NCBI GenBank assembly: GCA_011525665.1
Contig: WYAU01000043.1
Coordinates: forward strand, 1 to 64,000
Reading direction: 5' to 3'
Source: Candidatus Brocadia sp.
GTDB lineage: Bacteria; Planctomycetota; Brocadiia; Brocadiales; Brocadiaceae
DNA length: 64,000 bases
Position numbers and translations under genes: made by a program. The notes below the pieces were generated by a model. The model had not been told where the DNA came from. It did not search any database and saw only the letters and a program-made list of their open reading frames with translations. Below, piece after piece: positions 7 through 8,581 of this stretch (within the stretch, counting starts at the first letter, position 1; the number at the start of each line of letters is the position of its first letter).

Positions 7-332
7 AGCGTATTCCTCCTTTCTTGGTTTTTTTTGTTATTTACTCTTTCAACTCCAAGTATAGTGGGGAATGCGCTTTTTTTCTACCTCCGCTTATAAT
101 TTACACAATATATTTTACACTACCCTTGTACTGAAGGTATCATAACTTACCAGGAGAGGTTTCCTGTTCGCTAGGGGGATAACAATAATCTATGGCTGTT
201 ATCTGGTGGAACGTTGAGCAAACAGCGTTTACCATAGAGAAGAAGTTATCGGAAAGACTGTAGCCATTCGTAGCTTAATTGCAAACTGTGTCTGATATGT
301 TGAAAAATATTGTCTTAAAAGGAGAAATTACT
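7..332. other. Divergent intergenic region with long leader
   Basis: This gap separates the leftward partial gene from the large secreted protein. A TATAAT hexamer at 95-100 could be a -10 box for the rightward gene, but no good -35 is seen 17 bp upstream. If it is used, the transcript has a leader of about 230 nt (105-332) with several short complementary segments. I do not recognise a known riboswitch in it. Confidence 0.3.
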
Positions 333-3300
333 ATGTTTAAAATATTTACAGTTGCATTTATAGTAAGCTTGTTTTGGACGGCATCAGCCTGGGCTGCGGT
401 TACAGGTGACAAACCTGGTCTCAATGGAACTACCCACATCATGGCTTATGATAAAGACCTGAATACGTATTTTAAAAGTAGCTATGACAACTGGCAGTAT
501 ATTGAAATTGATATGGAGAATCTCGTTAATCTGCTATCTTTTCGTCGTTACATGAGTAAGGATGGCAGCAACATCAGTGGGACTCGACCTAATCAAGGCG
601 AGTCAGTCTCTTATTCGGTCGATGGTGTGACTTGGACCGAGTTGACGAAGGACACTACCCGCGGGTGGGAGAACTACCATAATTACGGCGCCCGCAATCA
701 TGCCTGGCAATCGGTGCGTTATGGCTGGTCTGATTTGTTGGTGATCAATACGCCAGTTACCGCGCGTTATGTCCGTTTTTCATGGGATGGGAATAATGAC
801 GCACTCCACGAAATAGAATTGAACTATGATCATATATTGTTTGATCAAATTTCATTTATTCGTGATGAATTAATGCCAAAAAACGCCAACAGACAGGCGC
901 ATATCTATATGGATCGCATGAGCTATGATGCGAACGATCCGGTCGCCCATGTTGTGGTCAGCTTTATAGGGGTTCCTCAAGTGCAAAACCCAGATGCAGA
1001 GATACACCTTAGGCTAATGGGGAGTCACACGGGTACAGTTACCAAGGTTATTCCCCACAGCAATAGTACTCCACAGAATTTTCAAACCTTTCTTGATCTC
1101 GCACTCCTTTCACCGGGACATTATACTCTGGAAGCCCAAATAATGTCAGGAGGGCATCCAGTGCAAAATACTCCCCTCCTCACGATTGCCTTTACGAAAA
1201 CTAGTGTCGTGCCTCCTGCGGTATCTTTTCCCACAGACGGAATCCCTCTCGTAGTACATGAACAAACACATGTTGCAAATGCGTCATACCCCATTTCAAC
1301 GGGGATCCCATTTCCGGATGGGGTTGTGAGCGACGTCAGACGTCTCGCATTATTTGAGAATGGTGTCCAAGTGCCTGCTCAGTTTGTTGTGCGGTCAACC
1401 TGGCGCCCGAAAGGTGGTTTCATCCGATGGCTTGGCCTTGATTTCACCGCTCAATACAAGGATTCTCCTGATGAAAAGGGCAATTTTCTTCCACGAAATT
1501 ATTGTCTTAAGTTGCTTCCTCAACCTTCAACATCACCAAAGAGGAATCTTATAGTTCCGAATAATCCAGATAAGATTACCATCGACACAGGCGTGATTCG
1601 CTTTGATGTGGACAAAAATCATTTTGCTGGTATAGAAAATGTTGCTTACGATATCAATAACGATCATGACTATCAGCCGACAGAGGAGATCGCATCATCT
1701 GCTGATGGAGGACCATTTCTGGTCGATCAAAAGAGTATAACTTACAAGGCAAGCAAAGGCACGTCTACAGTCTCTATTGAGGAAGAAGGAACACAGCGTG
1801 TTACGATTCGAATAAGTGGTTCGTATGCCAACGACCAGGGTAAAGAGTTGTGTAAATTCCTGACAAGGATTTCAGCCTTTGCGAAAAGCCCCGAGATTCA
1901 CGTCTCCCACCGCACTATTATTGACTATGATACAAAAGGAAATCCCATTCGCAATCTAGGATGGGATCAGGGTTTTGCTCTGACTGGAAAAGGGGCCTTT
2001 GGCGCCGACGGCAATGAAATCAATGGTGCTTATCTTGTGCAGGAAAAGGCGGATCAATTTCATGTCTTTGATCATGCCGGTAGTATTATCAAAACTGGCA
2101 CTCACTCAGACGGGTGGGTCTCGTTTGAAAAAGAAACGGCTCTCTTTCCCCCCGTCCGTGGGGTACCAGCACCTCGGGTAACCTTTGTTTTAAGGGACAT
2201 CTACCAGAAATATCCAAAAGAACTTGAGGTGTATAAGGACGGGAATATGTCACATATCGTGCTTCACTTTTGGCCCAAGCACGGGAGAACACCCTTTAAA
2301 GATATAAATGAGGATACCTCAGAGAATAATATTTATAAGCTGCGCTATGCGCATCAAGGGAAATACATGACATTGGAACTGCCTGAAGAATATAAGGATA
2401 AGTATTTTGGTTATGTTCCTGAAGATATAGGTATTAAACCTAATAGTGATATTGTAGACGGTAGGATTAAAATTACAAACGCCGAGGGGGGACAAGGTGT
2501 GGCGATCGGCAATGAGTTTGCCATACGTTTTGATCCTCCAAGTGCCCCACTCCAAACAATCGCCTCTCATGCCAGGCTGTATCAACAGAATCCCCACGCA
2601 ATTGCTGATCCGAAATGGAATGCGAGTTCTGGTGTACTCGGGCGTCTGAGCGCATCCGACCCCAACTTCGATGGCGCACTGGACAAGACCCTCAACGCAG
2701 CCGATCCCAGTTACCTAAGAAGTATCGTTGAAGCCGGAGATGAATATGGCATGTGGGTGTACGGTGATGTGCATGATACCTGGAATCCGAGCGAGGACCG
2801 TCCGGAAATACACCGTGTATGGGGCGGTTCTCACTATCAAAATGTCTGGGCGGGGTGGATGCGATATTTTCTCAATGGTAAGCCTGAGCAATGGCGCTGG
2901 GCTCAGGTCAATTCCAGCCACTATATGGATATTGCTACCAAGAACTGTGAAACTAAATTCACAGTTCCAGGCAAAAATGGCGCTCCACTTATTCAGACCA
3001 ATCATGAAGGAGAGATGTCCCATGCTGGAATACTGCTTCCGTGGGGTGGAAGAGCTTTCGGATTTAATGAACATTTTATCGATCCTGGCTCTCATTTATT
3101 ACGGTATTATCTCACAGGTGATCGTCGTGGAGATGAACTTTTTAAAGCTTGGTTTAATGTGTTTCGTGATTCGGGCTTTGTGCCTTGGTTGTGGACGTAT
3201 AGCTTTCCCATGACAAAGGAATCTCTTGCAAACTCATCTTTCCGCGACCGTGTACACAGTCTTGGAGAATTGGTGGAATATTATCGTGCAACGTGGGACC

Positions 3301-4556
3301 CGGCAGCGCTTGTGTTGATCGCAGAGCATTCTCGAGATATGCTGAATGTCCCCTTCGAGTGGACATTAGCCCCACGGGAAATGCCGATATGGGGACAACG
3401 ATGGTTTGCCCAGTTGTATGATTTGACCAGAGATCCACGCGTTGTAAGTCGGTTTATCTCCTGGGTCGGGGCCGGGCCCGGATTCGATGACTTTGCAGTC
3501 AATGCCTTTGTATACCAGGCTACCAAAGATAAGACAGTGCTCAGTCGCATGATCCCGCTCCTATATGACACGGCTCGTGTCTTTTATGATAACCCCGGCG
3601 ATCGTTATCATGGATATGGAACTTATATGAGCGCTGCCCAGAGACGATGGCTTCTAGGCGTTCCGTACTTTGTCCAGGCATGCAAGGATGCTGGGATTCC
3701 ACTTCCAATACAAAGGGGTACTCGTAGGGGCACATACCCAGGCTATCCTACATTTCTTACTGAAAACGAAATATACCTCTCAGGATACGCCCCACGTGGC
3801 TGGTCTTCATCAAGTACCATTGCATTAGTCTCAACTCCTGAAACGGCAACAATACACGTACGCCTTAATGTTAGTGGACACGCTGATAAGAGTGGGCAGT
3901 TCTGGGTACTAGAACCAGATAATAATCCGCCACCGCATAATCAACAACCAGGCACTAGCATTTTACCATCTCCGCTTCATCACGCCTCATATAACGAAGG
4001 GAGTAAGTTTCCGGTTGGATTTGATTTCACTGCAGAGAAAGACCGTCTCTACCGTGTGGAAGTTCGAGGACAAGTATCTAGTCCACTCGCACCTTACACG
4101 GATTTTACCGAGGCTGCCGTGCTCCTTCGAGAAAGGATAGATCAAAATGATGCAACAAAAGTTTTACTAGCAAATGATTACTTTGCAGTTGGTGGAAGAC
4201 AAGAGTACTATTTTCTTCCTACTCGGCCATACGACGGAACAATAACTCTACACATTGAGGCCAATAATGGAAACCGAGATCCGAAAACAGCAATGCCTGT
4301 CTATTATTGTATTGAAACTGATACTGGCGATGTACGTAGCCAAGGCTCATTATTTGCCTATGGAAGCCGGAAGTCTGTAGATGTGTCACTACCCATGCCA
4401 CCCCCAGGGAATGGAACTCCGTACAGATTCTATTCGACAACAAACTATGGGCATCGAATACAACTGATGAGCGGGGCAAATGAACTCTTACTATCTACTA
4501 ATTTAAAACATCTGAGCGCAATTCGTAATACGATTACTCCGGGAAGTACACCGTAG
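333..4556 (+). CDS. Large secreted discoidin plus rhamnogalacturonan-lyase-like (YetA/PcRGLX-type) protein
   Basis: The start at 333 is chosen over an in-frame ATG at 279 because AAAAGGAGA lies just upstream and the protein then begins with a clear signal peptide (about 22 residues, ending TASAWA). Residues about 24-170 resemble an F5/8 type C (discoidin) carbohydrate-binding domain, ending in ARYVRFSWDG. From about residue 305 a segment with STGIPFPDG, then VPAQF, then GGFIRWLGLDF matches the first (RIFT-barrel) domain of the exo-rhamnogalacturonan lyase/YetA family. A helical region at about 790-1120, rich in Trp and Tyr, fits the alpha/alpha-toroid domain. The last 250 residues look beta-rich. 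The length (1407 aa) exceeds usual family members because of added binding domains. A role in binding or cleaving extracellular acidic polysaccharide is inferred from family. No operon partner is visible; the gene stands alone. Confidence 0.7.
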   Translation: MFKIFTVAFIVSLFWTASAWAAVTGDKPGLNGTTHIMAYDKDLNTYFKSSYDNWQYIEIDMENLVNLLSFRRYMSKDGSNISGTRPNQGESVSYSVDGVTWTELTKDTTRGWENYHNYGARNHAWQSVRYGWSDLLVINTPVTARYVRFSWDGNNDALHEIELNYDHILFDQISFIRDELMPKNANRQAHIYMDRMSYDANDPVAHVVVSFIGVPQVQNPDAEIHLRLMGSHTGTVTKVIPHSNSTPQNFQTFLDLALLSPGHYTLEAQIMSGGHPVQNTPLLTIAFTKTSVVPPAVSFPTDGIPLVVHEQTHVANASYPISTGIPFPDGVVSDVRRLALFENGVQVPAQFVVRSTWRPKGGFIRWLGLDFTAQYKDSPDEKGNFLPRNYCLKLLPQPSTSPKRNLIVPNNPDKITIDTGVIRFDVDKNHFAGIENVAYDINNDHDYQPTEEIASSADGGPFLVDQKSITYKASKGTSTVSIEEEGTQRVTIRISGSYANDQGKELCKFLTRISAFAKSPEIHVSHRTIIDYDTKGNPIRNLGWDQGFALTGKGAFGADGNEINGAYLVQEKADQFHVFDHAGSIIKTGTHSDGWVSFEKETALFPPVRGVPAPRVTFVLRDIYQKYPKELEVYKDGNMSHIVLHFWPKHGRTPFKDINEDTSENNIYKLRYAHQGKYMTLELPEEYKDKYFGYVPEDIGIKPNSDIVDGRIKITNAEGGQGVAIGNEFAIRFDPPSAPLQTIASHARLYQQNPHAIADPKWNASSGVLGRLSASDPNFDGALDKTLNAADPSYLRSIVEAGDEYGMWVYGDVHDTWNPSEDRPEIHRVWGGSHYQNVWAGWMRYFLNGKPEQWRWAQVNSSHYMDIATKNCETKFTVPGKNGAPLIQTNHEGEMSHAGILLPWGGRAFGFNEHFIDPGSHLLRYYLTGDRRGDELFKAWFNVFRDSGFVPWLWTYSFPMTKESLANSSFRDRVHSLGELVEYYRATWDPAALVLIAEHSRDMLNVPFEWTLAPREMPIWGQRWFAQLYDLTRDPRVVSRFISWVGAGPGFDDFAVNAFVYQATKDKTVLSRMIPLLYDTARVFYDNPGDRYHGYGTYMSAAQRRWLLGVPYFVQACKDAGIPLPIQRGTRRGTYPGYPTFLTENEIYLSGYAPRGWSSSSTIALVSTPETATIHVRLNVSGHADKSGQFWVLEPDNNPPPHNQQPGTSILPSPLHHASYNEGSKFPVGFDFTAEKDRLYRVEVRGQVSSPLAPYTDFTEAAVLLRERIDQNDATKVLLANDYFAVGGRQEYYFLPTRPYDGTITLHIEANNGNRDPKTAMPVYYCIETDTGDVRSQGSLFAYGSRKSVDVSLPMPPPGNGTPYRFYSTTNYGHRIQLMSGANELLLSTNLKHLSAIRNTITPGSTP

Positions 4557-5445: not shown

Positions 5446-8145
5446 TCAAACGGGAAAATGTTTGCCATGAAACGTCACTATGCGTTTTACAAGCCACCGA
5501 ATAAGTGTGATGGTTATTCTAATGAAGAGTGTTATGCTGATTGTGCCCATCAAGATATCCCGATACGCCTTTTTCCCGGATACGCTGTCGAATAACGCCT
5601 TTTTGCACGCCGGATGATCAGTGGCAATTTGAATAATGGGTGTCAGAAAACCATAATAGGCGCCCCAGATGACAAACCTCCTCACTGTATGTGCATAGGG
5701 GAGGTCTTTTATGACCTCGCTGAAGCTGTCCGCATATGTTTGAAATGCCTCTCTCGATATACCAATATTGATCATGGTTTCTGCGGCCTTGATGCCCATC
5801 AGGCATGCCGAATTAACCCCTTTCCCTTTGAATGGACGAATGAGCCCGGCTGCATCGCCGATGGTGACATATCTGTCTCCATACAGGTGTTTGGCAGGTT
5901 TTATGGGAAAACAACCCCGGTGGTAATCAAGGCTTCCCAGAGATTCTCTGAAGTTTTTTGGGAGTACTTCTGAAACAGCGGGTAATTGCAAGAATTCGTC
6001 CATTGATCTGGACGAAATCTTTGCCCCGGCGATATTAATGGTATAGTGATCAGCCTTCGGTGTAATCGCGCCAAATTCTATTTCTTTTATCGAAGGTAAA
6101 AATGCGTGGATGTATCCATCCGTATCCTCCAGGTTGTGATACTTTCCTTTGGGATGGAATTTGGTTAGTATGGTCAATAAAAACTTTGGAGACCTGTAAG
6201 GGGTTTCCCTTTCAAATATCCTGTGGGTACCTTCTTCAAGGCCAAATGCGCCCACAACGACGTCAGCCCGTATGTGTTTTGTCTCGCTGTATACCGTAAC
6301 CTTGTCTTTACCAATTTCTACATCCGTGACCTTGCTCCTGATAACGGTTGCACCGGCCTCTTTTGCCTTTTGCAGGAGATAGGCATCAAACTGAATTCTC
6401 CGAAGGGCGTATGAAATTTCTCCCTCTCCATCCAGCCTGATGACATGACTGTTGGTATGAAGATAGTAACCCGGTACTTCCCTTTTCACGAGATGCCAGG
6501 GGAAGGGAATGCCCAGTTGATCCTCAATAATGTGCTCAATGGGCTGTGAGAGTACCCCAGCGCATTCGTTGTGCTCGATACCACCTTCGAAATCTTTCAG
6601 TTCAAAGACAATAACGTCCAGGTTGATATTTTGCTTTTTGGCAAGGTGTTTAAGGGTTATCGCGCAACTGGCACCTGCGGGTCCTCCGCCAATTATGGCG
6701 ACTGTTTGTCCGTCCTGCAGGGGACCCAGCCCTAAATTTCTCAAAAAGTGAAGTTTTTTCTCCTGTTCCAGGAGCGTCCGATTTTTAAAGTATTCATAGC
6801 CTTGCTTTACAGCCGCAGAGAGTATATAGGGGAACATGGCAATGTGCAGGCGGATGTCGGTAACCTTAAAAAAAATCTCTTTATAGCTTGCGTTGCCGGT
6901 AACCATATTCCACAAGATGCTGTTAATCTGGATAGATTCCCAGGCGTCCTGTCTTTTTGAAAGGCGATCAATTTGTGCGTTTACCAGGTGTTTTTTGGAC
7001 GTAGTATAATCGTGGATACCGAATATGAGATTACCAAAAAAGTTATCCTGCGCCAGAAGTTTTAAAGCAGGTTTGTAATACCCCTTCTTAAAATCTTCTT
7101 CAGAAATACCCCGCTCGAAGATTGTACGCGCCGCTAATTGTGCGGTATCAAAGGCAGATTCAATACCGTTCTTATAAGTGCGGGAGATACTGGCATCTCC
7201 GATTATTACCAGCCTGTTGGTATAGGGATGGTCGGCGTGAGTGACGGGTATTTTGGGGAAGCAGATGCAGAGGTTTTTTGGCAGTGTCCACCCCTCAGGC
7301 AGAAGCGCCCGTACCTTTGGATGTTTCATGAATTCAACCAGGTGGCCCTTCGTTATGTCCTCTCTTCCAATAAGTGAAACCGTAATATAGTCTCCCTTGG
7401 GGGTAAAGGCGGCAAACTTGATGGGTTTCATACCCAGGGCAAACACGTAAATCGTATTATGAAAACGCTCCTGAATAAAGGAACGTCCCAAGTAAAGTTC
7501 TGCATTGCATGTCCGCACCGATTGAGGCTCCCGGTAGCCGAACTCCTTGCCCACAATCCGCTTTATAAGGGCGGTATTGAGCCCAAATGCGCCCACAATG
7601 AGATCGGCAGACATCTTTTTTCTTACATCCGCTTCCCTGTAAACGATGTTTACCATATCTTGCGGATCTTTTGGCAATTCTATCTCTTCAACAACCGCCG
7701 AAGTGACCTTTACTCCTTCAGATGCTACATGCTTCAGGAGGAAGTCATCAAAACTGATATTGGTTGTCAACTCTGAAAACCGGGGACCGTTTCCGCGAAA
7801 GACCGTTATTATTCTGGGTGTATGTCCCGGTTTGGGGTGATGCAATTGGATGCCGCGTTCCTGGGTCTGAAAGTAATAGCCGTTTATTTCCTGTTGAACA
7901 CGCGTTTCGGGGAGGATGATTCCCCGGCTTTCCATTTTTCCGATGAGGGTTTCAGATAAAACGCCGGCGCACATATTACAACCAACGGGGCCCTTTTGGA
8001 TAAAGTCCCTTCCATCGAGAATGGTTACAATGATTTTGAGGCCATGCTCCTTTGCGAGCTTCAAGGCAAAGTGTGCAAAGAAACAACCCGCCGGCCCACC
8101 GCCGATTACAACAATATTTGAGAGATCTTTCAGATGCATATTCAT
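5446..8145 (-). CDS. Tandem (fused) FAD-dependent geranylgeranyl-reductase-family protein
   Basis: This 899-residue protein holds two complete copies of a roughly 420-residue flavoprotein of the geranylgeranyl reductase/digeranylgeranylglycerophospholipid reductase family. Copy one starts with the dinucleotide-binding GGGPAG near residue 15, followed by GCNMCAGVLSE, and later LVIIGDAS. Copy two starts with IIGGGPAGASCA near residue 480, then HNECAGVLSQ, and later VTIGDAAGLIRPFKGKG. The CxG(V/I)LS motif after the Rossmann fold is typical of this family, which saturates isoprenoid or other double bonds with FAD. A hydrophobic C-terminal stretch of about 20 residues may anchor it to a membrane. 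The canonical GDAAG appears only in copy two; copy one has GDASI, so that half may differ in activity. It is the last gene of the leftward block, about 100 bp after the PII gene. A role in lipid or quinone side-chain reduction is inferred. Confidence 0.8.
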   Translation of the reverse strand: MNMHLKDLSNIVVIGGGPAGCFFAHFALKLAKEHGLKIIVTILDGRDFIQKGPVGCNMCAGVLSETLIGKMESRGIILPETRVQQEINGYYFQTQERGIQLHHPKPGHTPRIITVFRGNGPRFSELTTNISFDDFLLKHVASEGVKVTSAVVEEIELPKDPQDMVNIVYREADVRKKMSADLIVGAFGLNTALIKRIVGKEFGYREPQSVRTCNAELYLGRSFIQERFHNTIYVFALGMKPIKFAAFTPKGDYITVSLIGREDITKGHLVEFMKHPKVRALLPEGWTLPKNLCICFPKIPVTHADHPYTNRLVIIGDASISRTYKNGIESAFDTAQLAARTIFERGISEEDFKKGYYKPALKLLAQDNFFGNLIFGIHDYTTSKKHLVNAQIDRLSKRQDAWESIQINSILWNMVTGNASYKEIFFKVTDIRLHIAMFPYILSAAVKQGYEYFKNRTLLEQEKKLHFLRNLGLGPLQDGQTVAIIGGGPAGASCAITLKHLAKKQNINLDVIVFELKDFEGGIEHNECAGVLSQPIEHIIEDQLGIPFPWHLVKREVPGYYLHTNSHVIRLDGEGEISYALRRIQFDAYLLQKAKEAGATVIRSKVTDVEIGKDKVTVYSETKHIRADVVVGAFGLEEGTHRIFERETPYRSPKFLLTILTKFHPKGKYHNLEDTDGYIHAFLPSIKEIEFGAITPKADHYTINIAGAKISSRSMDEFLQLPAVSEVLPKNFRESLGSLDYHRGCFPIKPAKHLYGDRYVTIGDAAGLIRPFKGKGVNSACLMGIKAAETMINIGISREAFQTYADSFSEVIKDLPYAHTVRRFVIWGAYYGFLTPIIQIATDHPACKKALFDSVSGKKAYRDILMGTISITLFIRITITLIRWLVKRIVTFHGKHFPV

Positions 8146-8242: not shown

Positions 8243-8581
8243 CTAAACGGCCTTTTCTCCCTTTTCTCCAGTACGAATCCGAACAACGTTCTCTATGGGG
8301 GAAATAAAAATCTTACCGTCTCCGATGTTTCCTGTTTTGGACTCCTTTACAATGCATTGCACGATTTTTTCGACATCCTTATCCATAACCACCAATTCCA
8401 TCTCTATTTTCTTTAAAAGATCCGTTCTGAATGTTCTTCCACGCCATTGCTCGGTAATGCCCTTTTGATGGCCGTGTCCTTTCACCTCGGTTATTGTCAT
8501 ACCCGGATACCCGATATCCAATAAAGCGTCCTTTACCATAGCAAACCTGTCTTCTCTCACAATTGCCGTAATCTTTTTCAT
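8243..8581 (-). CDS. PII family nitrogen signalling protein, Tyr51 replaced by Phe
   Basis: The 112 residues align end to end with GlnB/GlnK, including the N-terminal MKKITAIVRE, the T-loop region GHGHQKG, and the C-terminal GNIGDGKIFI followed by VVRIRTGE that forms the ATP/ADP and 2-oxoglutarate pocket. PII trimers sense energy and 2-oxoglutarate and regulate ammonium transport and nitrogen metabolism. The T-loop residue uridylylated in proteobacteria (Tyr51) is Phe51, and position 46 is Trp, so classical uridylylation is not possible here. A strong AAGGAGG precedes the ATG. The gene begins 13 bp after the PLD-like gene, so the two are likely co-transcribed. No amt or glnA gene is adjacent. 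Confidence 0.93.
   Translation of the reverse strand: MKKITAIVREDRFAMVKDALLDIGYPGMTITEVKGHGHQKGITEQWRGRTFRTDLLKKIEMELVVMDKDVEKIVQCIVKESKTGNIGDGKIFISPIENVVRIRTGEKGEKAV

Follow-up and report, generated by a model that had tools for sequence, protein, structure and literature searches.

Two GGR-superfamily domains are encoded in one uninterrupted gene

The stretch of DNA analysed here (the window) comprises 64,000 nucleotides of contig WYAU01000043.1 from a Candidatus Brocadia assembly (GCA_011525665.1). On its minus strand, at positions 5446-8145, ORF reading and translation reveal a single uninterrupted open reading frame (ORF) of 899 amino acids (aa) that starts with ATG and consists of two complete geranylgeranyl-reductase (GGR)-superfamily domains. 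Each half of the protein contains a GGGPAG motif (residues 15-20 and 486-491), a cysteine in the sequence CAGV, and a GD motif, which reads GDASI(S) in the N-terminal (N) half (residues 316-320(321)) and GDAAG(L) in the C-terminal (C) half (residues 763-767). An earlier note, made from the sequence alone, had described such a fused tandem and considered an anammox host; the ORF, together with the family and fold matches of both halves presented below, bears out the first point, and the genus, Brocadia, the second. The difference between GDASI and GDAAG that it pointed out is also present and, since GDASI is conserved in alignments of relatives, a sequencing accident is not its cause. What had been called an altered first FAD (flavin adenine dinucleotide) motif is, more exactly, the second FAD motif (the GD motif) of copy one; in a test for GGR motifs, GxGxxG was found intact in both halves. 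The features of the locus are as follows.

5446-8145, minus strand: gene for the 899-aa fused double GGR-like flavoprotein (ORF, translation, homologues of the same architecture)
6751-8145, minus strand: N-type domain, residues 1-465, the diverged GGR-like half (AlphaFold2 (AF2) model, match to 3oz2, tree)
5449-6750, minus strand: C-type domain, residues 466-899, GGR-like with FAD contacts intact (TIGR02032, match to 3oz2)
8086-8103, minus strand: first GGGPAG dinucleotide-binding motif, residues 15-20 (no exception at G15, G17 or G20 among rows with letters)
7969-7980, minus strand: CNMC of the N half, residues 56-59 (C56 in 68/68 and C59 in 54/69 N-type rows with letters)
7261-7269, minus strand: CIC of the N half, residues 293-295 (both Cys in 70/70 N-type rows, 0/54 C-type)
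7183-7200, minus strand: altered GD motif GDASIS, residues 316-321 (alignments)
7171-7182, minus strand: RTYK, residues 322-325 (R and K invariant in 124 domains)
6718-6729, minus strand: inter-domain linker LGPL, residues 473-476 (G474, P475 and L476 invariant in 10 aligned fusions)
6673-6690, minus strand: second GGGPAG, residues 486-491 (alignment)
6553-6564, minus strand: CAGV in the C half, residues 528-531, its Cys presumed from the CGGG-like context to correspond to the catalytic Cys of GGR (Cys47 of SaGGR)
6385-6399, minus strand: FAD-contact motif RxxFD in the C half, residues 583-587, its Arg absent from the N half (alignment; role as given in part of PMC10821996)
6058-6075, minus strand: FGAITP, residues 691-696, at the site of the GGR cavity motif YxWxFP (alignment)
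5845-5859, minus strand: canonical GDAAG, residues 763-767 (alignment)
5827-5838, minus strand: RPFK, residues 770-773 (R and K invariant in 124 domains)
5500-5559, minus strand: hydrophobic C-terminal stretch, residues 863-882, helical in the model, a possible membrane contact (Kyte-Doolittle peak of 2.06 at 864-882)
8243-8581, minus strand: PII regulator gene, 112 aa, directly upstream with a 97-bp gap (Pfam P-II)

Both halves align with nearly the whole length of TIGR02032, scoring 62.0 bits (N half) and 89.9 bits (C half); the whole protein, its two stretches combined, reaches 147.9 bits, which is under the curated cut-off of 158.8. The predicted folds of both halves have their best solved match in TaGGR, the Thermoplasma GGR (3oz2), with Z 31.7, 364 aligned positions and an rmsd of 3.1 for the N half, and Z 31.6, 357 aligned positions and an rmsd of 3.1 for the C half (residues 478-879). 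The N half was modelled separately with AF2 from 70 sequences (pLDDT 89.5, pTM 0.90), and the C half was taken from a full-length AF2 model built from 10 sequences (pLDDT 79.2, pTM 0.52). The second structural match of the predicted N half is 7koe_C, an electron-transfer flavoprotein (ETF) subunit (Z 30.7), and the group of QhpG and the flavin halogenases is represented by 7ctq_A at Z 26.9. The QhpG model matches the C half with 56.7 bits (cut-off, 240 bits).

Both halves are under strong purifying selection of about equal strength. In six pairwise comparisons, dN/dS is 0.05-0.07 for the N half and 0.06-0.09 for the C half, with dS at 0.57-1.6 and near saturation in several, indicating that the N half in Brocadia is not decaying. 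The gene is broken by a frameshift or a contig end in a few genomes (G003, G007; G002, G019), which is what could be expected of an assembly or annotation artefact or of a decaying duplicated gene. Yet many independent genomes have the ORF unbroken, among them the complete Brocadia pituitae genome (AP021856, L079). These conserved ORFs refute an artefact and, with the low dN/dS of both halves, make this whole explanation scarcely credible.

The junction was inspected for start codons. Residues 438-489 of the window gene include no ATG or GTG and a single TTG, at residue 468, which is preceded 15 bases before by AGGAG, an unusually long spacing for a start site. Of 24 homologous fusions that were checked, nine are free of ATG, GTG and TTG across a 36-codon stretch at the junction; these 24 come from the 35 fused ORFs besides the window's, the remaining 11 having been missed by the motif search. 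Separately translated halves, which the earlier note had named as evidence that would speak against a fused enzyme, thus find no support in the start codons at the junction, although the TTG leaves the C half open.

The N half has diverged in its FAD contacts and has its own cysteines

Motif retention was counted in 124 domains, 70 of N-type (36 fused, 34 standalone) and 54 of C-type (36 fused, 18 standalone). The set was drawn from the window and loci L069-L120, L136, L137 and L170-L189, and not from L009-L068, where many of the genomes are the same; alignment A1 comprises 10 of the 30 loci L009-L038. Excluded were broken or partial fused ORFs (L086, L093, L098, L099), a split gene (L110), L113 (no ORF hit), short fragments in L089 and L105, and L186 (G249, no BLAST hit), whereas the partial L100 was retained.

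The RxxFD arginine (R583) is present in 47/54 C-type domains, including all 36 fused ones, the losses being seven f2 genes, and in 0/70 N-type domains. According to the available part of PMC10821996, this arginine contacts FAD in Thermoplasma GGR, and SaGGR likewise lacks RxxFD. The GD aspartate (D764) is kept by 54/54 C-type and 55/70 N-type domains. It is missing in 15/36 fused N halves and in 0/34 standalone N-type domains; the 15 losses are those of L079 and of 14 out of 15 Scalindua-type fusions, with L088 counted in that group. The standalone N-type gene beside a Scalindua-type fusion keeps the aspartate in 13/13 cases.

C293 and C295 occur in 70/70 N-type domains, C56 in 68/68 rows with letters and C213 in 64/70, and the corresponding C-type counts (C293, C295, C56, C213) are 0, 0, 4/53 and 0. 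The GGR-type cysteine is found in both types, as C528 in 46/53 C-type and C59 in 54/69 N-type rows. In the window protein both C528 and C59 stand in CAGV, in keeping with the CGGG context of Cys47 of SaGGR, to which they are presumed equivalent by sequence context; Cys47 has a catalytic role, as stated in the part of PMC10821996 that lists the archaeal GGR motifs. Also shared by both types are R770 and K773 (R322 and K325 in the N half), which are present in 124/124 domains, and AFG, present in 122/124 (F at 634), in place of which a canonical GGR from an f2 genome (L140) reads ADG.

These counts bear on a first alternative, a bifunctional prenyl reductase with FAD in both halves, which would saturate one after another the double bonds of a menaquinone side chain, a polyprenyl lipid or a ladderane precursor. 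Such an enzyme would account for the GxGxxG kept in both halves, for the GD aspartate and CAGV cysteine in both halves of the window protein and of most Brocadiaceae proteins, and for GGR being the best structural match of both halves. AF_PR, an archaeal menaquinone prenyl reductase, also lacks the GGR motifs (PMC10821996, in its available part), so motif absence does not exclude prenyl reduction. The bifunctional enzyme fits poorly with the lack of the cavity-motif tryptophan in 124/124 domains, of the RxxFD Arg in 70 of 70 N-type domains and of the GD Asp in 15/36 fused N halves, and with a family not confined to anammox bacteria, and we regard it as unlikely. In particular, sequential reductions by two equal sites, one of the roles raised by the earlier note, look unlikely because of these two losses of FAD contacts. 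Its more general proposal that the halves have diverged stands, the N half being degenerate in its FAD-contact motifs and the C half intact.

The two halves are old paralogues that have been joined or split repeatedly

In a tree of 77 rows selected by hand (71 of the 124 domains and six outgroup rows), N-type and C-type domains form separate clades, each with several phyla (SH-aLRT 99 and 83, respectively; long branches flagged). As far as sequence phylogeny can tell, the halves are old paralogues in two old sister clades. This phylogeny of each half, a check suggested by the earlier note, indicates that fusion joined old paralogues, and a recent tandem duplication within the gene was rejected. 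A tree of 34 C-type and three N rows, also selected by hand, requires five changes of the fused state, three of which are forced by starred branches, and a single clade uniting the 19 fused rows is rejected (p-AU 0.0064). The f2 N-type gene groups with standalone Brocadiaceae N-type genes and not with fused N halves, as would be expected if f2 had lost the N half, and some of the changes may be splits. On these trees the N and C partners have been joined or split repeatedly, and repeated joining of the same two domains would be expected of partners acting together.

Named relatives occur in Brocadia, Jettenia, Kuenenia, Loosdrechtia, Anammoxibacter and Scalindua. By hand tallies of matches in 75 genomes of the class, 62 of them in the order Brocadiales, a match crossing the junction is present in 48/62 Brocadiales genomes: 29/33 in f1 (the family of the window), 16/17 in f4, 2/2 in f5, 1/1 in f3 and 0/9 in f2. 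Fusion is therefore the usual form in Brocadiales outside f2 (48/53 genomes). The f2 genomes encode separate full C-type (7/9) and N-type (9/9) genes on different contigs, and 6/9 match PF18582. The other 13 genomes of the class gave no match at 1e-15. Among these genomes the fused form was not found in G010, G012, G016, G027 and G044, absences that may be gaps. G010 also lacks the neighbour gene NNRD, so its lack of the fusion is no strong evidence of dispensability; G012 and G027 have NNRD and no match, and G016 has NNRD and an N-type match only.

At 1e-30, 35 of 392 Planctomycetota genomes matched, 34 of which are Brocadiales. Outside the phylum the family is found in records titled Aminicenantes, Glassbacteria, Electryonea and Nitrospinota. 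Of the Aminicenantes phylum 149 genomes were sampled; 13 matched at 1e-40, and four rows spanned the model. On DNA reading these four are three single ORFs (L196, L197, L199) and one pair of adjacent genes (L198). N- and C-type genes are adjacent in L198, divergent in L200 and fused in L103, L196, L197 and L199, and they form overlapping adjacent pairs in Aminicenantes JdFR-78 (L106) and Glassbacteria (L116). The view of the earlier note that the fusion is unusual holds across bacteria (35/392 Planctomycetota genomes with a match, 3/149 Aminicenantes genomes with the fusion), but the fusion is not peculiar to this genome. A role in ladderanes only was rejected as too strong, given the presence of the family in Nitrospinota and Aminicenantes. 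The part in lipids or quinones that the earlier note suggested is a candidate role and no more; both halves lack the GGR cavity motif, and the family extends to organisms outside the anammox bacteria.

PF18582 (hydrazine synthase alpha, HZS_alpha) is matched by 40/62 genomes of the order but is unmatched in the genome of the window, which speaks against the assignment of the host. G064 and G065, two genomes of the same class outside the order, have 11 and 16 matches, so that the model is neither complete nor specific. Alone, it is therefore no safe anammox marker.

Neighbouring genes suggest regulation and vary between genera

In the window the gene follows the PII regulator gene, an order common to other Brocadia loci; the cluster of this neighbour is represented in six loci including the window, in one of which (L098) it is not immediately adjacent. 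A gene of one histidine-kinase cluster follows on the same strand in 14/15 Scalindua-type loci (one is a fragment at a contig end). Of these genes only the representative in L095, 9 bp downstream of the fusion, was annotated, as a dCache-PAS histidine kinase. At L073 there is an overlap between the start of the fusion and a response-regulator-HD gene. Upstream in Scalindua L095 lie genes for a Rieske protein, a flavoprotein with iron-sulfur motifs, cytochrome b and multihaem cytochromes, a set that appears to resemble the Kuste4569-4574 Rieske/cytochrome b complex of Kuenenia as presented in the available part of PMC12954380. No neighbour is common to all loci, and Kuenenia has neither PII nor kinase directly beside the gene. 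Fix/ETF partner genes were not found among the annotated neighbours, not every neighbour being annotated. The surroundings suggest regulation and name no substrate.

These neighbours speak for a second alternative, that the protein is no lipid enzyme but a flavin redox sensor or electron-transfer adaptor, which would read the quinone or redox state and feed two-component, PII or cyclic-nucleotide signalling, or pass electrons to respiratory complexes. The co-directional kinase-cluster gene of 14/15 Scalindua-type loci, the overlapping response-regulator-HD gene of L073, PII next door in Brocadia, the Rieske/cytochrome b cluster of L095, a third paralogue with a cyclic-nucleotide-binding domain two genes from a kinase, and 7koe_C as second structural match of the N half would all be accommodated. 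Against this, the neighbours change with the genus (PII in Brocadia, a kinase in Scalindua, neither directly beside the gene in Kuenenia), so that none is obligatory, kinase genes are probably abundant in such genomes generally, and the C half of the fusion keeps the GGR-type cysteine and the FAD contacts. We give this alternative little credence.

Two candidate associations were set aside. An HAO-like/Rieske cluster as a general rule was rejected, since it is present in Scalindua loci such as L095 and absent beside the Brocadia and Kuenenia genes; in L106 a multihaem gene is separated from the N/C pair by an opposite-strand gene. The RarA-like neighbour of the N-type gene in f2 seems to be a housekeeping gene placed there by chance.

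Several other genes were noted. The third GGR-like paralogue, in the window genome (L170:6533-8446, G000:C41), has a cyclic-nucleotide-binding domain at its C-terminus; after it come an ABC substrate-binding protein gene and, two genes away, a histidine kinase gene. Directly before the fusion, and in its frame, lies a standalone N-type gene in f3-f4 loci including L037, L088 and L096; these loci have open frames of ~1400 aa in one reading, as opposed to a stop between the genes in the ORF reading of L037 and L088. In Nitrospinota (L108:8402-11257, L109:6655-11275), a gene for an NAD(P)-binding NmrA-DUF2867 protein precedes the C-type gene, overlapping it in L109; it is the L108 copy that is annotated. 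Upstream of the Nitrospinota C-type gene there is a metallo-beta-lactamase-fold gene, and L109 also has a formate/nitrite transporter gene ahead. Elsewhere in the window, positions 279-4556 encode a protein of 1425 aa, whose central beta-sandwich domain is PcRGLX-like and which also matches F5/8 type C weakly.

An intramolecular heterodimer with one catalytic-type half is the favoured explanation

The explanation that we favour, with about even confidence, is that two anciently diverged GGR-superfamily flavoproteins form an intramolecular heterodimer, which works as a unit, is membrane-associated and has an unsaturated lipid-like substrate. The C half would be the catalytic-type subunit, because it keeps GxGxxG, an acidic residue after the second strand, which we take to bind ribose, the GGR-type cysteine, RxxFD and GDAAG. 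It would bind FAD and, at the membrane surface, pass hydride to the unsaturated lipid-like substrate. The N half, with its fold kept, its flavin site weakened (in Scalindua probably lost) and an invariant cysteine set of its own, would hold the substrate, serve for docking or deliver electrons. The analysis shows the pair itself, the predicted fold of both its members, which motifs each has kept or lost, recurrent joining or splitting, and purifying selection on the two; what we infer from this is FAD occupancy, contacts within the heterodimer, binding to the membrane and reductase chemistry. Anammox hosts are anaerobes, and fold, cysteine and anaerobic host together make a lipid-like reductase the most economical reading. 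The hydrophobic C-terminal stretch suggests membrane contact, as proposed for the C-terminal amphipathic helices of SaGGR, which are thought to mediate membrane association (PMC10821996, in its available part).

Several observations weigh against this heterodimer. None of the 124 domains has the tryptophan of PxxYxWxFP, the cavity motif of GGR, and the window protein has FxAxTP in both halves; this warns against the name GGR, although AF_PR also lacks the GGR motifs. In f2 the C-type protein, unlinked to the N-type, has lost both the cysteine (R in 7/7) and the RxxFD Arg (N in 7/7). Among 77 Nitrospinota genomes, 24 match and N-type domains occur in two, in one of these beside a C-type gene; a further Nitrospinota genome, G085, has both types. 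The N partner thus appears dispensable at least there, where C-type mostly occurs without it. The pTM of 0.52 leaves the relative placement of the halves unsettled, and an internal start of the C half at TTG 468 is possible. The AU test presumes a group set beforehand, and here the group was named after the first tree, with long branches present. Finally, no ferredoxin gene was found among the annotated neighbours, which do not include every neighbour.

A more specific version assigns the N half a role as a flavin-poor or flavin-free thiol or metal relay, built on the invariant C56, C293 and C295 and the near-invariant C213, that delivers electrons to, or gates, the catalytic C half of a two-part lipid hydrogenase. 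The Scalindua N half would then be a true pseudo-flavoprotein, while the FAD site would be kept by the additional standalone N-type gene next to it. We consider this a long shot. We know of no earlier heteromeric GGR-type reductase; this two-part enzyme, if real, would be the first, and it might take part in anammox membrane or quinone chemistry.

The protein is kept by most of the anammox genomes examined, with both halves tightly conserved, and its chemistry is a concrete starting point for learning which double bonds, in membranes or in quinones, are reduced by anammox bacteria. The same two domains, repeatedly joined and split, offer a testable case of a heterodimeric GGR-type flavoenzyme.

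Comparison with known flavoproteins

No account of the fused protein was found among the listed titles and opening lines of papers on anammox, Kuenenia, ladderanes and GGR fusion, a search that left subscription papers mostly outside. The available parts of the 2009 ladderane gene paper and of the Nitrospina genome paper contain no mention of geranylgeranyl. Among characterized proteins, the peptidyl tryptophan dihydroxylase QhpG and the flavin halogenases, which use O2 while the anammox hosts live anaerobically, belong to the same flavoprotein superfamily, and the protein scores far under the QhpG cut-off. The N half resembles the FixC/ETF-quinone oxidoreductase-like subunit 7koe_C, with no Fix/ETF or ferredoxin gene among the annotated neighbours. 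Within NCBIfam, the superfamily model TIGR02032 (GG-red-SF) is covered to near full length by both halves, each of which is under the curated cut-off. The protein differs from archaeal GGR in having two domains per chain, RPFK or RTYK next to the GD motif and AFG in place of ADG (canonical GGR of L140), and in lacking PxxYxWxFP and, in the N half, the RxxFD Arg; identity in structural alignments is 13-20%. In common with TaGGR (3oz2) and SaGGR (3atq), it has the predicted fold of each half (Z about 29-32), GxGxxG, the GGR-type cysteine and the GD motif, and it shares with archaeal GGR the RxxFD of its C half and a hydrophobic C-terminal stretch.

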